Source: Symbiotaphrina buchneri
Taxonomy: Eukaryota > Ascomycota > Symbiotaphrinales > Symbiotaphrinaceae
NCBI GenBank assembly: GCA_001599915.1
Contig: BCIG01000025.1
Span: 371,676-435,675, forward strand
Length of the DNA: 64,000 nucleotides
Reading direction: 5' to 3'
Program-made: the position numbers and the translations under genes
Notes under the pieces: model-generated
What the model was told of the DNA's origin: nothing
The model's database searches: none
The model's input: only the letters and a program-made list of their open reading frames with translations
Shown here: positions 3,375-11,995 of the stretch, in pieces
Position numbering within the stretch: position 1 is the first letter of the stretch
Layout: each line of letters begins with the position of its first letter

Positions 3375-5156
3375 CTAATATTCTGGATGACCTCCGGAAG
3401 GTGTGTTGCTACTGCCTGGCCCTGAAGTTGGTATCGGCTGCCGTTGATTGGAGACATTTCCCAACACAGGCTGTTCATTGAAGGGAGAGTCATTTGCATG
3501 CGAATTCCGCGGCGGTGGTAGCCGTAGTTCTCCAAAAGCCGAGGGGCCGCCCGACCCAGTATAGCTTGAAGAAGCAGCCGAGTCCGCGTGGTTGGAGTCA
3601 GGATCCCATATAGGAAGCCCATCAGGCGGCTGAGATTCTCCAGTTGGGTGACCGCGAGCGTAAGAGGCCAGAGAACCATTAATACCGGTCAAGGCCCATG
3701 CGAAGCAGGCCACATCACGAATGACATTCATGAAGTCCTCCACAGGAGGACCGGATGGTGGGGGAATATTATTCCTTGCCGCAGCCAGATTTGGGAGATA
3801 TGCGCCGTTGAAAGACCATAGTTGGTAATTGGGAAGGATCTGTTCTGGTTCTGGCATGACTGGTTCTGTTGCCCAAGGTGCGGCGAACAAGCCACTCGTG
3901 TAAGCCGCAGGAGTCGGCTGTTGTGGGAAAGCAAGCACCGGCCTGGCTTTGCGGAGCACGACAACCAGCCCATCTGACGTGCAGGAGACTACTGCTTCGA
4001 CCTCAAGGCGCCCACCTCGTGCCTCCGATCTCTCGATCCGCGGCTGCCTCCCCAGTTCCGGCGAAGGCAGGGGCAAGGATGAGCTGGATGACTCTGCAGC
4101 TGTCGGTTCGTCAAATATGCCCTCATTCCTGCTCGTATCATGGTCGGTACTGTTGCCAGACGTATTGGAAGTTGACACCGACCCTGAGGTTGTCGATGAC
4201 TGGTGTTCGTATGTTCTGGTCTGTTGTCGCTGGTCAGACTGACCCACTAGGTGGACGCCCCCCTCATCCTCATCCTCTTCGCTACTGCGTGCGTCTTCCA
4301 TTGGCTCGTCTTCGCCATTCGTCTCACCTCTCTCGGTTTGGCGTGGATCCCGGAACCAAAAGCGAAGATAGGCAATGGAGTCATTGGCCTTGGCGCTTTC
4401 CAGACATCTGATGGCTTCCGCTAGACAGTCTTCCTGGATGCAGTAATAGAAGCTCTTGTCCTTCATTTCTTCTGCAGAGATACCTACAATGTCGGACACG
4501 GAATTTGTGGCATACATTACAGGGAGAGTACGGCTGAACCTGTTGATGAACAATGCGGCCCTAGGCTCATGGGGCTGTCCCCGAGAGAATTTAGAGGAGA
4601 GTTCGGTCAACATATGGTACCGCGGATCCCGTGGAGAGGAAGAGAATAGCCGTCGTATGATTGGTGCCTCGACCGCCCGTTCTGTGGACACGTTGGTCAT
4701 TGCCTTCATCTAGAGGTGCAGCGCATCAGGACCAGCATACTCACTTTGACTTTTATAATCTCGCCGGTAAATGCTCGTGCAGGCCACCAAGACGTCATGG
4801 ACGACCGTGAAGCAACATTCGCACCCCACCCATTCATTGTGCTTGCTCTTGATCCTACAATATGATAGCACGGCAGCCTTATCAAGGTAGACCCCGCGGC
4901 CGTGCTTGGCTTGCGCGAATGGTAATTCTTCCGGATGGAAATAGTCCCAACACGATCGGCCAACGACCTCCTGTGGCATCCATCCCAGGATATCTACAAT
5001 CGAGTTGGATGCGTAGAGGATTCTGGCATCAACAGTGAGGTCTATGACTGGTCAACATACAGATCCCAGACCTAGTCACAAGTAGGGTCCCTTCCGGAGA
5101 CCTCCCGAGAACAAAAGGGTAAGCGTACCATGAATCGAGATGAATGTGGTCTCCAT
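3375..5156 (-). CDS. PAS-domain protein, two PAS folds
   Basis: Three exons (5156-5129, 5041-4745, 4681-3375) give 543 aa. The first exon encodes only METTFISIH; joining it to DLTVDARILYASNS completes the start of a PAS fold (about residues 5-105). A second PAS-like segment (about 128-205, AALFINRFSRTLPVMYATNS...) follows. The C-terminal half is acidic, then Ser/Gly/Pro-rich, and seems disordered. No zinc finger or kinase domain follows, so it is not a white-collar or histidine-kinase protein; sensing or protein interaction is the inference. The second junction was fixed by frame: donor GTGAGT at 4744 and acceptor CACAG at 4682 restore S-Q-K-R-A-V-E-A-P. No Cys for flavin attachment was recognised, so light sensing is not claimed. 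Confidence 0.8.
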
Positions 5157-7002
5157 GGCTCCGGAAACCGCTGGCTGCGTCAGAACGGCTTTCTAACACA
5201 TCCACGAACAGCAAGTTTGCCCACAATAACTAGGACGCAGCACGATATGGGGTGTGGATTGTCTATCGGCCTTCTAGACTCCGTTCATCAAGGATATAAT
5301 TGGGACAAGTTCGGCAGGGTCATGTGCGTGTAGAATAAATGCACAAGTTATGCAGCAGACACAGGACGACGTCAATTGCGCGCACTATCGGGTATGTGGT
5401 GTCTGAACCCGGCGAGAGGAGAGCCGCAGAGTGGTGAAACACGGAAGAGCAGGACGTGTTGACCCAAGGATATTCGGTAGCAGGAACGTGGTTGGACCGC
5501 TCAAGTCATGCAACTGGGGGGAGCTCGATCGATCAGTCACTCAGAACAAGGGTATCCGGTCCGGAGACGCGGGTCCGAGTAAGGGATGAGCAAGGTATCG
5601 AGTAGTGGTGGTGGGGAAGCACTTGAGAAGACACGACGATTGTCTTTTACTCGTCTTTTGAGGAAGTTGCGAAGATCGGAAATAACAGGGAAAATGACGG
5701 AGTTGGGCGCGGTACGGAGTGCCCATACGAGAACCTGGAGTAGTACGAAGCTACGGCGTCGGTGCGCTGCAATGGCTTTCATCGGACAAACAAGACAGTT
5801 TGCTTCCATCCAATCATCATCAAGCGTGCAGGTATCGTTACCTTACCTTATCTTATCATCTCGGTCATATTGTAAAGGTATCTTAAGTACCTTACCTTAC
5901 CGACCTTGCGTGTTCCTTCGTACCGTACAGATACGATACCTCAAAAGAAGAGACTGTGAGACTCGTGGGCTCTTGGACTCTTTTGGCGGTGACAGCAAAC
6001 CTTAAAAGGGCCCGTAAGGGCAAGGTACCTCGAGTAACACATCACTTACGGTAAGGTACCTTAGGTATCTTAAAGTATCTTTTACCTTACCTACTCTACC
6101 TAGGTAAGTATTTATGGCTTCCTGCACGTCATTAAGGTATGGCCAGTGAAGAGATGCGGAGCAGAGGATGTAGCAGTTGTACACCTACCTTACCTAGGTA
6201 GTCGGCGGTGTCCAACGAGGCTCCTTCCTGTTCATGCTATGATTGATGCTTTACACTGTCTTAAGTGTTCTTAATGCACTCTTTGAAGTGCAGCCGGTCG
6301 ACTCATGTTGCTTCGTAGACCTGCGCTCTACAGCGTTGACGGTGGTATTCGTCGTAGCAGTGAAGTACCCTACCTAAGGTAACCTAAGGTAGGTAGCTTG
6401 CCTGCAGTCCTCGACCTGCTGCAGTCTTCAGTCGGTTGACTTGAAGCCTTTTATATGATTTAAGATACCTAGCAAGATGTTTGAGTAAAGACATATTTTT
6501 TAAATACCTACCTTACCTTCCAAGTTCCTTGCCTACCTCACCATAAGATGCCGTCCTTATGAGCTGCGGCGAGCAGCTGTTATGAGAGGCAACCGTACTG
6601 CCCAACGCAGCCCCTCTGCTTCTGCTGCTGTTGGCACCAAGAGCCGGACTTTTTCGCCCCTTCCAGTATAGCAGCGTGATGCCACCAATTGGCCGAGGCG
6701 CTGCACAGCTTGACCACACAACGCCCCGTAAGGAACACAGAAGTCATGCATTGTCGCCCTCTGTCATCCTGTTTCCGGCATCATAGCCCCGTTCTTACTT
6801 TCGAGAACATCTCCTCTGGTAGGCACCGGTTGCTTAGCAAGCTATTAATATTCTCCGAGTCCCAACGTTCAGTTATCATGCAGACACATCAAGTCTGACT
6901 TCCACTCTTTTTTTTGATGTTCTTTCCTGAGTATATTATACCAAGCTGCATTGTCTTGTGATAATCCGTTTCCTGTTATCTTTCCGGGGACATTGGGCGA
7001 AC
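5157..7002. repeat. gene-free block with GGTACC/CCTTACC repeats
   Basis: About 1.85 kb without a supported gene. From about 5820 to 6550 it is dominated by degenerate TACC/GGTA units: CCTTACC, GGTACC, CCTAGGTA and TAAGGTA in both orientations, many overlapping and palindromic. The stretch near 6040-6120 is almost entirely made of them. The same motif recurs in most promoter-side gaps of this window. The left part is the 5' region of the PAS gene. Confidence 0.75.
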
Positions 7003-8199
7003 ATGCCTTCCCTCACCACCACCCTACCGGCTTCTTGGTTTCAGAGTCTTGCTTTGTACCAGCTTGAGCGCAGAGCCATCTTTCTCAAGGTAAGGACGAC
7101 TACGCTCTGCAGTGGGCCTACCGGCGCTCATCGTCCGGCCAGTCATGGCATCTCTTGGGCCCCATCACGCGTTTCCAGGAGCGGAATGTTAGGGTGGAGT
7201 ACGAGATCGCCCAGGTTGGCTTCTACGCCATCAACACATCGGATGAGAACAACAGCATCAGCCCAGAGGGGATTGCCGTATATGATCTGAACGTGGGTGT
7301 GTTCCTTCCCGACAAGGCACTTGTCTGAGGCCTTCTAGGAGCGACCGCTTCGTACGCATTTCACTTCTAGTGGACTGGTCTTTGTCACGCTATCCGAAGA
7401 AACGTTGTCGTTCGATCAGTTCTTTCCGGGCCTCGAGGAACTTTTAGCTCGGGTGGACTTCACGAAGCTACCTCACAGGCGCAGTCTGCGATACAGCGGC
7501 CACTTCAATTGGAAGACCATGTAAGTCACTTTTCGGCTGTGTGCTTCTAGGCAAAATCGTAATGACGGGATGGAAGGATGGACGGCTATCAGGAGTGTCT
7601 GCATTGCCAGTACACCCATCCTTCATTCTCTAAGTTCTATCCTCCAACTTTCTACGCCGTTGAAAATCACACGAATTTCTGTCGGCACATTGCCGACCCA
7701 AAGAAACCAGACGATGGTCTTTTTTTGTACTTCTTCCCAATGTGCACACTGAACGTCTACGGGGGAGGGATGTCGTCATTCCGGACATGTCCCACCGACG
7801 ATCCCTGCGTCAGTCGCATGGAGTTTGATTATTACAACCTCAAGGACGGCGAGGCTTTCGAGGAGTACTTCCGATTCGTACGGCAGGTGGCCTTGGAAGA
7901 CTTCGAGCTCTGTGAAAAGGCACAGAGCAACCTGGAGCGAGGCATCTACAATGAAGGGATCCTCAATCCGAACAAGGAGAACGGTGTTGCTTGTAGGTCT
8001 TCACTTGTTTGCGTTCGTTGTCAAGCCCCGCCCTGATCAAGTGCAAGATTACCAGCAGCGAGTTCGGGAGCTCGTTTTCGAGCAGCATGCTGTCGAGGAG
8101 GAGGTGCGGAAAGGGGCGGTTAGTGGGAAGCCAGAAGCTGCCCCCGGGCTTTCCCAGCCACGTGGAGGCGCGCCATTAAGCGTGGAGATTGGAGCTTGA
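7003..8199 (+). CDS. Rieske-oxygenase alpha-subunit relative lacking the Rieske cluster
   Basis: Five exons (7003-7089, 7143-7292, 7339-7520, 7577-7992, 8048-8199) give 328 aa, closing in frame. The catalytic half is clear: NWK at 136-138, then DGYQECLHC with His149 and, four residues later, His154, the usual ligand pair for mononuclear iron in choline-monooxygenase-type ring-hydroxylating oxygenases. The N-terminal half keeps the flanks of the Rieske domain (LERRAIFLK, WHLLGPITRF, VEYEIAQ, SGLVFVTLSEE), but the segment that should carry Cys-x-His and Cys-x2-His is only a short linker. All introns are GT-AG, so this looks like a real protein with an internal deletion, not a broken gene. If active it needs an outside electron donor. 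The next gene downstream carries a Rieske cluster. Confidence 0.82.
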
Positions 8200-8997
8200 T
8201 GTGCGTGCTGAGCTTCGAGGAGCAATCGTGAAGGATCCGGGGTGGTCATCCCTCTGGACAAGTGCTATATGCCGGCCACCATGCATGCCCCTAGACAGAT
8301 TAACGTGGACACGAAGGCATGCCACTTCGGCATGCCTTCGTGTCAGCCATTCATTGCTCCGACACCGATTCAGGGCTTGACCAGTGCACAAACTGAGCAC
8401 ACGACACGGAGCATGCAGTCTACCACAGATGCCATGCCACCAGCTATTATTAATGATTAAATGGCTCCTTTGTTGTGGAAGTCGTAGGTACAAACAGGTC
8501 CTGGACACATACACGCCGGGTTAAGGTTTCGGCGGGGAAGAAATTTCCCGAATTGGTAGAATTAATATCAGATGCGAGATGCCTGTTCTTTGTCGTTTCA
8601 CGTCAGGTTTAAGGCTTCCCGGCAGGCCGCCAACATGCACCATGGAAGCATATTCCAAGTTGGGTTAGCCCAGAAACCTATCACCGAGCCCTACTGATCT
8701 GCAAGGCGCGCTGTAGCTCTACGGGGCAAGGTAAGCAACCATCGATAAGGATCTGGTGAATCATGTCGAATAATGGACACCGTCTTAAACCGTGTGCGAA
8801 AGCCATGCCCCAAGGCCGACGTGCACCTTTCCGCGCGCCTTGCTCACGATTACACGTCGTGCATGGCATGCAGGAACAGGGTCGGAGTCGGGGATAATTG
8901 AAGAAAGGAAACAATAAAGAAGCCATTGCCCCTGATTTGCCCATTTATCCAATCTAGTTGTTGTCTGTCAACCAACCACCTGCCGGTCCTCGGAACA
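8200..8997. other. intergenic between the two Rieske relatives
   Basis: No gene is supported. It contains the perfect hairpin at 8308-8344 and, upstream of the next ATG, a plain promoter-like stretch. Open frames on either strand are short and without recognisable content. Confidence 0.6.
8308..8344. repeat. perfect 16-bp inverted repeat with 5-nt loop
   Basis: The left arm 8308-8323 (GACACGAAGGCATGCC) is exactly complementary to the right arm 8329-8344, with loop ACTTC. It lies 108 bases after the stop codon of the first oxygenase gene, in its likely 3' untranslated region. Confidence 0.9.
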
Positions 8998-10533
8998 ATG
9001 ATCTCCCTCTCCAACATCCTCTGGCTTCTTATCGGACTCCTGATCCCAAGGTTTCTGCCCGACCTTCGATTTCTAGATATTCTGCCGCGACGGCGCTGGC
9101 CGGGCCAACAGCAGACAGTATCGCCTGAAGATGTCAAGGGGGAGGTGACGGATGGCGTCACCAAGGAGTCAGAGTTCCCGCCGGACTGGTGGACAGGGAA
9201 GAAGATTTTTGAACTTGAAAAGAGAGCTCTCTTCAGCAAGGTAGGTCGTCAGCTTCCACGAAACACAACGCTGGGCGAGAATACACTGGGAATATGCCAA
9301 CTGCCATAGAGTTGGCTCTATGTCACCCACCGAAATCGCTTTTCGAAGCCAGGGGACTACCGCAGTTTTGAAACTGCCGGCTTCCCATTTTTCCTTATCC
9401 TTGGCCGCGACGGTCAGCTGCGCGCCTTTCACAATGTGTGCCGACACCGAGCGTATAGCGTAACACGGAAAGAAAGCGGTTGCTCCACAGTATTGGGTTG
9501 TCGTTATCACGGGTGGTCCTATGATACGCTGGGACGTCTCACAAAGGCTCCGGAGTTTGATAAGGTGCCTGGCTTCAACAGGGCTGACAATGGACTATGG
9601 CCGATCCATACGCATGTAACACGCAATGGCCTAGTCTTCGTGAATTTTGCTCGCGAGATTTCCGACGCAGATAAGCCTGAATGGGATGTGGATATCATGT
9701 CCCCAGCAGGATCTCAGTGGCTGTCAAGCTGGGAAATCCAGGGTAATTTCAACTGGAAGCTGACTGGTGAGTGACCTGAACACTCTCTGAGGATGCGACG
9801 AGGGAAAGTATAAGAGACTGAGACGAATGTACATCTAGAGAGTTCTCCTCGTCAGGAGGCGGCGTCGACTTCTGGTCTGTTAGACGCACTCCGGTTTTGG
9901 AATGCCGTGCCAAAGGAGGACATTCGTGGTTTCCCTTGCGCAGCGTTCTATTTCGATCATGCTGCAAGAGTTTGGTTATCTGTGTCCTTCATGCCAGCCT
10001 CCGCCCACCAGACAACAGCGAGAGTTGATGCCTATCAGACCGGAAAGGCTGCCAACTATGGGAGCGGCTGGCAGAATTTGAAAGATCGGGCGGTAGCCAT
10101 GATAACAGAACTTGAGAAGAAGCAGATCGCACTGAATGAACGAGCCCAGTGAGTAATCTGTTTCTGCAAACAGAACACACTGACAAAATCGTCTGTAGAG
10201 ATGTATCGCAAGAGGTGGACTGGGGTAAGTCAACCCTAGAATTCGTCCGGAAGAAGCATCTGACACAGCATAGAAGCGCAAAGTAAGCTGTTGGATATCC
10301 TCAAGACACATCTGAAGCAGGAACGAGTGCTTGGAGAAGAGATTCATCCAGCACGTGTCCAAAGCAATCTAACGCCACAGTTTGCTGAGGCAGATCAGTG
10401 TAAGAGAAGTATGCTCTTGGAAACCGTGCATAAGTACTAACGTGGTCTCACAGTCTGCAGAGCATTGGACAAGCTGGGCGATATGGAAGCTGATCTGGAA
10501 CCTGCAGGAAGAAACGATCCTATGGCCTGGTAA
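8998..10533 (+). CDS. membrane-anchored Rieske [2Fe-2S] protein without oxygenase catalytic domain
   Basis: Six exons (8998-9240, 9310-9766, 9839-10148, 10199-10224, 10274-10399, 10454-10533) give 413 aa. Residues about 3-22 form a hydrophobic N-terminal anchor. The Rieske domain spans about 83-200: Cys125-x-His127 (VCRHRAY) and Cys145-x2-His148 (CRYHGWSY), so the cluster ligands are present. The usual NWKL follows, but instead of the D-N-Y-x-E-C-Y-H iron site the protein goes to a different module (about 235-345, WLSVSFMPASAHQTT and a helical EKKQIALNERAQ) and a polar tail. I recall similar Rieske proteins in fungi, so this may be an established family. Probable role: electron transfer at a membrane. 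Confidence 0.82.
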
Positions 10534-11013: not shown

Positions 11014-11995
11014 ATGCCAATTTGCATCGAATGTCGCTATCCGGTCCAGCAGCTATATACTGTCTACAGCAAAGCCGATGACCGCGCCTTAGGCAAGGGC
11101 GTACGTCTCACACAATGCCCTCGCTGTAAGCGCTTTGCGGACAAGTATGTCGAGCATGACTTTGTCGTGTTGTTCATAGACCTGGTCTTGATCAAACCGC
11201 AGGTATATGCATTCTGGCATTTGGCAAATGGCTGGGCTAAATCATCGCAGGTGTACCGGCATCTTCTGTTCAACCGCCTAGGAAGGGAAGATGACAGATT
11301 CGATGTGAGCATCCAACTCTAGTGCGATTGCCCCGTCTTCTGACAGCAACCAGCCAACCATCATCCGGCTTGGAGTGCTTCTGTTACTATTTGATGTCTA
11401 CCTAACATGGGCACGCGTGGAAAAACAAGAACCATTCGATGAATCGGCATCTCTGACGCCCAGCTTGCTGGCCCAAAAGCCTATATTCATTCAGTACTTA
11501 TTCTTCTGTACGTCCTTCGCCCACAGTACGGCGATCTGCCACTAATGACAATCCTTGAACTCAATAGTATTCCTATGTCTCACGGAGTCTCTGACATTCC
11601 ACCTGACGATTCGTGTCCTTGCCCGCTTCCTCCTTCATTATCCACGCCCGAATTCGGTCAGCACTGCGTTGCTTGTCTCCTCTTGTACGAAACTGTTCCC
11701 GATCCTCATGGTCATCTGGGACTATGACATCCCAGCGGCGGCTAAGAGTGTCGGCTGGGCGGTTGTGTTGAACAACGTCGAGGCTCTGAATATCTTGCTT
11801 GGATGTGGATACCTGAAGGCGGGACTGCTGGCAGGCCTGGGTGCAGTGGCACGTATAGCTACTGGGAACGCGGTCATGAGCGCGATGGGTCTGGAAGGGG
11901 GCACAAGCGGTGCTCAAATTGCAGATTTATGGACATTATGGGAATGGGTCAAGAGCTGGATAGATTTACTGCTTCTGCATATGCCTTTGGGCTAA
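11014..11995 (+). CDS. ARV1: ARV1 lipid-homeostasis protein
   Basis: Four exons (11014-11202, 11251-11304, 11354-11507, 11568-11995) give 274 aa. The N-terminus is the Arv1 zinc ribbon: Cys4-x2-Cys7 and Cys35-x2-Cys38 (MPICIEC, QCPRC), followed by YVEHDFVVLFIDLVLIKPQVYRHLLFNR, the family signature. Several membrane segments follow up to a C-terminal hydrophobic end. Arv1 is an ER/Golgi membrane protein needed for sterol distribution and early GPI-anchor steps. The start is the ATG just before the first cysteine pair. All introns are GT-AG. It converges on the V-ATPase subunit e gene. Confidence 0.93.

Follow-up and report, generated by a model that had tools for sequence, protein, structure and literature searches.

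A 64,000-nucleotide (nt) window of Symbiotaphrina buchneri contig BCIG01000025.1 (positions 371,676-435,675; coordinates given here are those of the window unless another record is named), part of a 23.4 Mb genome assembled into 82 contigs, was shown to contain two adjacent same-strand genes with reciprocal losses and a complementary anatomy. Gene 1 (7003-8199) encodes the catalytic half of a carnitine/choline-type (group V) Rieske oxygenase without the Rieske cluster, and gene 2 (8998-10533), which follows after 798 bases, encodes the Rieske half without the mononuclear iron site. That two neighbours on one strand hold complementary oxygenase halves had been claimed in an earlier note on this DNA, and was borne out here by Pfam domains, motifs and conserved columns. 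Judging from their sequences, we have a modest preference for regarding the two genes as a single oxygenase that would be split across two chains. The features on which this analysis relies are as follows.

7003-8199, + strand: gene 1, Rieske-less oxygenase catalytic protein of 323 amino acids (aa) (splice model, Pfam PF00848)
7003-7089, 7143-7277, 7339-7520, 7577-7992 and 8048-8199, + strand: the five exons of gene 1 (splice model)
7245-7344, + strand: scar in gene 1, comprising the end of exon 2, intron 2 and the start of exon 3 (alignment to 80 relatives and CntA)
7593-7619, + strand: iron and electron-entry motif of gene 1, with Glu141 (bridging), Cys142/Cys145, His144 and His149 (motif scan, CntA alignment)
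7896-7901, + strand: Glu242-Asp243 of gene 1, Asp243 being the third iron ligand (CntA D323) (alignment)
8998-10533, + strand: gene 2, Rieske protein with a degenerate catalytic domain and a hydrophobic N-terminus, 413 aa (splice model, Pfam PF00355)
8998-9240, 9310-9766, 9839-10148, 10199-10224, 10274-10399 and 10454-10533, + strand: the six exons of gene 2 (splice model)
8998-9057, + strand: N-terminal hydrophobic stretch of gene 2, approximately residues 1-20 (Kyte-Doolittle)
9439-9510, + strand: Rieske ligands Cys125, His127, Cys145 and His148 of gene 2 (motif scan)
9767-9838, + strand: intron 2 of gene 2, between NWKLT and E, where relatives continue into the E-x2-H-x4-H iron motif (alignment)

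The protein encoded by gene 1 matched Pfam family Ring_hydroxyl_A (PF00848) with 76.9 bits and displayed no Rieske match at E-values up to 0.1, its best solved relative being CntA (6y8j, E 9.8e-11). Column-wise comparison with CntA paired Tyr139 with Tyr203, Glu141 with Glu205, Cys142 with Cys206, His144 with His208, Cys145 with Cys209, His149 with His213 and Asp243 with Asp323, so that the facial triad of the mononuclear iron (His144, His149 and Asp243) is complete; the motif ECLHCQYTH begins at Glu141. The earlier note had placed this iron site at His149/His154 in DGYQECLHC; the site itself was recovered, while its numbering did not hold in our gene model, a difference that is possibly due to intron 2 having been spliced differently in that earlier reading. 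An aromatic residue at CntA position 203, given as a clade Va criterion in passages of the CntA report (PMC7948474), is present in gene 1 as Tyr139; this criterion discriminates little here, since all 80 bacterial relatives retained in the scan described below carry Tyr or Phe in that column. The Cys206 and Cys209 columns were each occupied by Cys in four of these 80 relatives.

At the scar, approximately 13 residues, ENNSISPEGIAER, replace the cluster-binding part of approximately 50 residues present in relatives. A single internal piece is missing from gene 1, corresponding by hand count on the alignment to approximately residues 64-111 of the oxygenase L084 (positions 4001-5074), which derives from a Candidatus Obscuribacterales metagenome-assembled genome and showed the lowest E-value to gene 1 among the full-length bacterial matches listed. 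An AlphaFold model of L084, based on a 23-row alignment, had a predicted local distance difference test score (pLDDT) of 89.6 and its best Protein Data Bank (PDB) matches were CntA chains (E 6.8e-30). Strands 66-70, 85-87, 92-94, 101-103 and 108-110 of this model, together with both ligand loops, are absent from gene 1, whereas strands 32-36, 45-51, 54-60, 129-135 and 138-142 have aligned counterparts, and the cluster-binding part of gene 1 is therefore gone, with its supporting segments kept. A structure model of a single gene 1 exon (138 aa) lends weak support, as its confidence was low (pLDDT 69.4, predicted template modelling score 0.49) and it obtained no PDB match at an E-value of 0.001 or better, the best being CntA chains at E 0.0023.

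Gene 2, conversely, matched the Pfam Rieske family (PF00355) with 57.0 bits and showed no Ring_hydroxyl_A (PF00848) match at E-values up to 0.1. The presence of Cys125, His127, Cys145 and His148 and the lack of an iron site, both noted previously, agreed with the motif scan and the alignment: E-x2-H-x4-H is absent after NWK, the third-ligand column is occupied by Gln, and all three iron ligands are lost. The remaining catalytic region aligned weakly and the C-terminal region was poorly alignable with relatives, although the best-scoring solved relative of gene 2 was also CntA. Neither Pfam nor NCBIfam revealed a reductase domain in gene 2. The maximum Kyte-Doolittle value over 19 residues was 1.84 from residue 2 in gene 2, compared with 1.07 from residue 182 in gene 1; the hydrophobic N-terminal stretch behind the previously proposed membrane anchor is thus present, and an anchoring role is likely by hydropathy. 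The NCBIfam model for glycine betaine monooxygenase GbcA, with a cut-off of 670 bits, was reached by neither protein (36.3 bits for gene 1 and 84.2 bits for gene 2).

Bacterial and archaeal genomes were scanned with a four-sequence alignment as query, and the best 80 of at least 444 relatives, all bacterial by title, were retained. In all 80 the reading frame carries both the cluster and the iron motif, and none of the 80 aligned sequences lacks any of the four cluster ligands or three iron ligands. This set is biased towards proteins with an iron site, because the patterns used for searching covered regions close to the N-terminus and immediately preceding the iron motif, hence partly near that site. 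In total, 51 columns were conserved in at least 90 % of the 80 relatives, of which 14 belong to the cluster part, 31 to the catalytic part and six to the N-terminal or base part. Gene 1 retained none of the 14 cluster columns, compared with all 14 in gene 2, 12 in a full-length paralogue encoded on another contig (C8) and 11 in CntA. For the 31 catalytic columns the corresponding counts were 20, 8, 19 and 23, and for the six N-terminal or base columns 2, 5, 4 and 3. The earlier statement that gene 1 is devoid of Cys-x-His/Cys-x2-His is in keeping with these counts, and the complementarity proved sharper than had been proposed, with the bridging Glu on gene 1 and the entire set of conserved cluster columns on gene 2.

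Only one further gene of this type, the C8 paralogue, was encountered in the 23.4 Mb genome; it carries both sites, and both Pfam domains were scored in it as well as in two bacterial and one archaeal full-length relatives. Group V Rieske oxygenases hold both metal sites on one chain, which applies to neither gene 1 nor gene 2; taken together, the two genes possess the cluster ligands (gene 2 only) and the iron triad (gene 1 only) of that group. No relative of either gene was obtained in scans of IMG/VR. Plasmid tblastn searches returned 29 records for gene 1, all below 60 % identity, and 908 for gene 2, none spanning 80 % of that gene.

A Rieske exon missed in gene 1 was sought by unfiltered tblastn (E-values up to 100) over positions 6000-8990. 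With the gene 2 and C8 Rieske domains, in-frame matches were confined to the segments bordering the missing piece on either side (best E 0.003). The remaining matches were scattered in other frames, the strongest (E 0.024, 52 residues) lying in an alternative frame of gene 1 exon 4 and containing C-x-H without C-x2-H. No Rieske motif was encountered in the introns of gene 1 (three introns translated in three frames, plus the fourth intron), and a whole-genome Pfam search yielded no Rieske match on this contig other than gene 2; by these three approaches, no overlooked Rieske exon was found. The iron motif of the C8 paralogue (ECYHC) resides alone on an exon of approximately 23 nt (L014, 4242-4264), flanked by two short introns, an arrangement that annotation pipelines may easily overlook. 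For this reason a micro-exon carrying the iron motif was also considered for gene 2, and was rejected: the 72-nt intron 2 contains no H-x4-H in any of three frames, one of which reads DECTS.

How the two proteins might cooperate can be envisaged from CntA, a group V carnitine monooxygenase that is the best-scoring solved relative of both genes, yet differs from them in bearing both metal sites on a single chain. According to passages of PMC7948474, the intrachain distance between these sites is 44 angstroms and the distance from one subunit to the next 12.2 angstroms, with the bridging Glu205 passing electrons from the Rieske cluster of the adjacent subunit to the iron; every Glu205 mutant made in that study was inactive. 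As electrons in CntA already cross between subunits rather than within a single chain, a loss of the cluster in one chain and of the iron in the other would leave the route intact. In the proposed mechanism, the cluster of gene 2 would dock onto gene 1, electrons would travel from this cluster via Glu141 to the iron held by His144, His149 and Asp243, and O2 would be activated at this mononuclear iron. Of the two-protein oxygenase put forward previously, in which gene 2 donates electrons, the complementary anatomy is thus observed, while the electron supply belongs to what we infer for the pair, as do binding, stoichiometry, substrate, reductase and membrane location. Tyr203 of CntA binds the quaternary ammonium group (PMC7948474, in part), and a Cys206/Cys209 pair has been described for some group V enzymes (passages of PMC10952381); Tyr139 and the Cys142/Cys145 pair of gene 1 hint that the substrate may carry a quaternary ammonium group. 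A more specific version, to which we give somewhat less than an even chance, is an obligate two-chain enzyme that would have arisen by reciprocal decay of paralogues, one having lost its electron supply and its neighbour having lost the iron while keeping a membrane anchor, with a mixed ring in which electrons would pass only between unlike chains.

The principle of a split oxygenase is already known from bacterial NdmC/NdmD and from the two-chain chlorophyllide a oxygenase of Micromonas. In the caffeine N7-demethylase of Pseudomonas putida CBB5, according to passages of PMC4408171 and PMC10380055, the cluster-free NdmC forms a working complex with NdmE and with NdmD, the latter bearing an additional Rieske domain. 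The likeness lies in a Rieske-less catalytic chain, as found in gene 1, with the cluster on another protein. The NdmC system differs in that its cluster is fused to a reductase, a feature that gene 2 does not share, and in its GST-like third protein, gene 1 and NdmC being compared by description; in the fungal pair, the protein carrying the cluster is a degenerate oxygenase paralogue whose N-terminus is hydrophobic. The Micromonas pusilla enzyme belongs to another family and acts on another substrate; its two metal sites are reportedly distributed one per chain, a finding attributed to Kunugi in 2013. Passages of PMC9615114 describe the Micromonas enzyme as two chains that are active in vitro, for which a heterodimer had been suggested earlier and a trimer of dimers is thought likely by the authors.

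A further Rieske-less protein was identified in haloarchaea (WP_012945747.1; 336 aa, annotated as an SRPBCC family protein, with an ECDHC motif), which resembles gene 1 in having a group V-like catalytic domain and in having lost the cluster site in the same region. Six plasmid records carry it at full length with 81-100 % identity (L015, 2944-3954; L018 to L021, 4944-5954; L103, 6001-7011). In all five of the six sequences that were read, the iron motif is present, Ser replaces the first cluster Cys and C-x2-H is missing; the Natrinema copy still has the first cluster His. Unlike gene 1, which has no Rieske match, the haloarchaeal protein retains a partial Pfam Rieske match of 20.3 bits, just at the cut-off. 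Its neighbour, where there is one, is also of a different kind, since in four of the six plasmid regions a full-length oxygenase, not a Rieske-only protein, lies upstream on the same strand, and the catalytic domains of this neighbouring pair are nearly identical by eye, unlike those of the fungal pair. The annotation tables of the two Haloterrigena regions list no oxygenase nearby; aldehyde and formaldehyde dehydrogenase genes lie close to these copies, together with a BCCT transporter gene in H. turkmenica. In the catalytic-part tree the haloarchaeal protein was placed elsewhere. Given these proteins, loss of the cluster part has probably occurred more than once.

Among fungi, CMO-like proteins with a choline monooxygenase (CMO)-type catalytic domain (cd08883) have been noted (passages of PMC6157903), which differ from genes 1 and 2, by description, in having both domains, and passages of PMC12130555 mention a fungal full-length oxygenase with reported salicylate 5-hydroxylase activity. 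No report of a fungal split pair of this type was found in the open-access literature searched, and the words NdmC, split, fungal and fungi do not occur in the review PMC12445004. If the proposed arrangement is correct, it would extend split oxygenases to fungi and would illustrate how a CntA-type homo-oligomer can divide labour between chains; moreover, the inter-subunit electron route would be the sole possible one, providing a clean system in which to test it.

In terms of origin, the whole-genome Pfam search returned seven Rieske matches, of which only gene 2 and the full-length C8 paralogue are, by eye, of the oxygenase type. The matches C5, C14, C10 and C12 presumably represent, on inspection by eye, a nitrite reductase, an AIF-type reductase, a flavin adenine dinucleotide (FAD) oxidoreductase and the mitochondrial Rieske protein, and C13 is a weak match with two stops. 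Trees were computed with 28 rows taken from the 80 bacterial relatives; in the Rieske part, gene 2 grouped with the C8 paralogue (100/99), and L084 adjoined them (94/87). By BLASTP, gene 2 shares 51 % identity with the C8 paralogue over 151 residues, gene 1 shares 25 % with this paralogue over 360 residues, and gene 1 and gene 2 share approximately 29 % in two segments, one of 58 and the other of 64 residues. Since the neighbours share only this approximately 29 %, compared with 51 % for gene 2 and the C8 paralogue, they do not resemble fresh tandem copies, although they may descend from an old duplication, or gene 1 may have evolved faster.

Both gene models are well formed, as had been noted earlier: all nine modelled introns show GT-AG boundaries, those of gene 1 measuring 53-61 nt and those of gene 2 49-72 nt, and neither frame is interrupted before its stop codon. 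Codon scores, based on frequencies trained on seven large open reading frames (ORFs) of the window, averaged +0.118 in frame in gene 1 and +0.130 in gene 2, compared with values between -0.14 and -0.32 in the incorrect forward frames. For three intergenic stretches, all nine forward-frame scores were negative and one of nine reverse-frame values was +0.07. The last exon of gene 2 fits less well, with another frame outscoring the coding frame (0.168 vs 0.036). A single fused gene was also considered and rejected, as the Rieske half is downstream and separate start and stop codons delimit each gene.

Several observations weigh against a split oxygenase. Gene 1 and the C8 paralogue were weakly joined in the catalytic-part tree (83/69), where the branch of the paralogue is very long. 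The last exon of gene 1 has an in-frame codon score of -0.025, yet this is the best among its frames, and GC content at third codon positions is higher in gene 1 (0.65) than in the training ORFs (0.54). Scanning of 19 of the 22 window ORFs of at least 230 aa, and of a few shorter ones, did not reveal a recognisable reductase. Furthermore, the adjacency of the two genes could be a leftover from an old tandem duplication, and gene 1 might take its electrons from the full-length C8 paralogue instead.

This last possibility corresponds to a mixed complex of gene 1 with the C8 oxygenase as cluster source, gene 2 being an unrelated anchored electron-transfer protein. It would accord with the presence of both metal sites in the paralogue and with the four haloarchaeal plasmid regions, in which a Rieske-less copy adjoins a full-length rather than a Rieske-only one; we nevertheless consider it unlikely, as the C8 gene is located on a different contig while gene 2 adjoins gene 1, and as gene 2 has lost what gene 1 keeps, and vice versa. 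It is likewise improbable that the two genes are old tandem paralogues with separate roles, gene 1 encoding a binding or other SRPBCC protein and gene 2 a membrane Rieske carrier for another enzyme. The divergence of the pair across their common segments and the poor alignment of the gene 2 C-terminal region are consistent with such roles, but the iron triad of gene 1 is complete and its bridging Glu is kept, the residue that forms the link to the Rieske cluster in CntA (passages of PMC7948474).

Decay of one or both genes, with gene 1 as a young pseudogene whose cluster part was lost by chance deletion, would explain why its loss resembles one internal deletion, as well as the low-scoring last exon. 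It is regarded as very unlikely, given the intact frames and splice sites and the positive overall codon scores of both genes, and because gene 1 kept its catalytic columns on par with the full-length paralogue. An artefact of the assembly or gene models is hardly credible: although a single assembly was used and the splice models were made from genomic sequence, no Rieske motif was found near gene 1 apart from gene 2, and both losses leave the frames open.

The neighbours of the pair in the window include Rrn11, Arv1-like and trehalose phosphate synthase genes, with the Arv1-like ORF (11549-11992) following gene 2; together with the short GT-AG introns, such neighbours suggest a filamentous fungus. 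Upstream of gene 1, positions 6000-6560 appear repeat-rich by eye, with repeats of the type TACCTAAGGTA.

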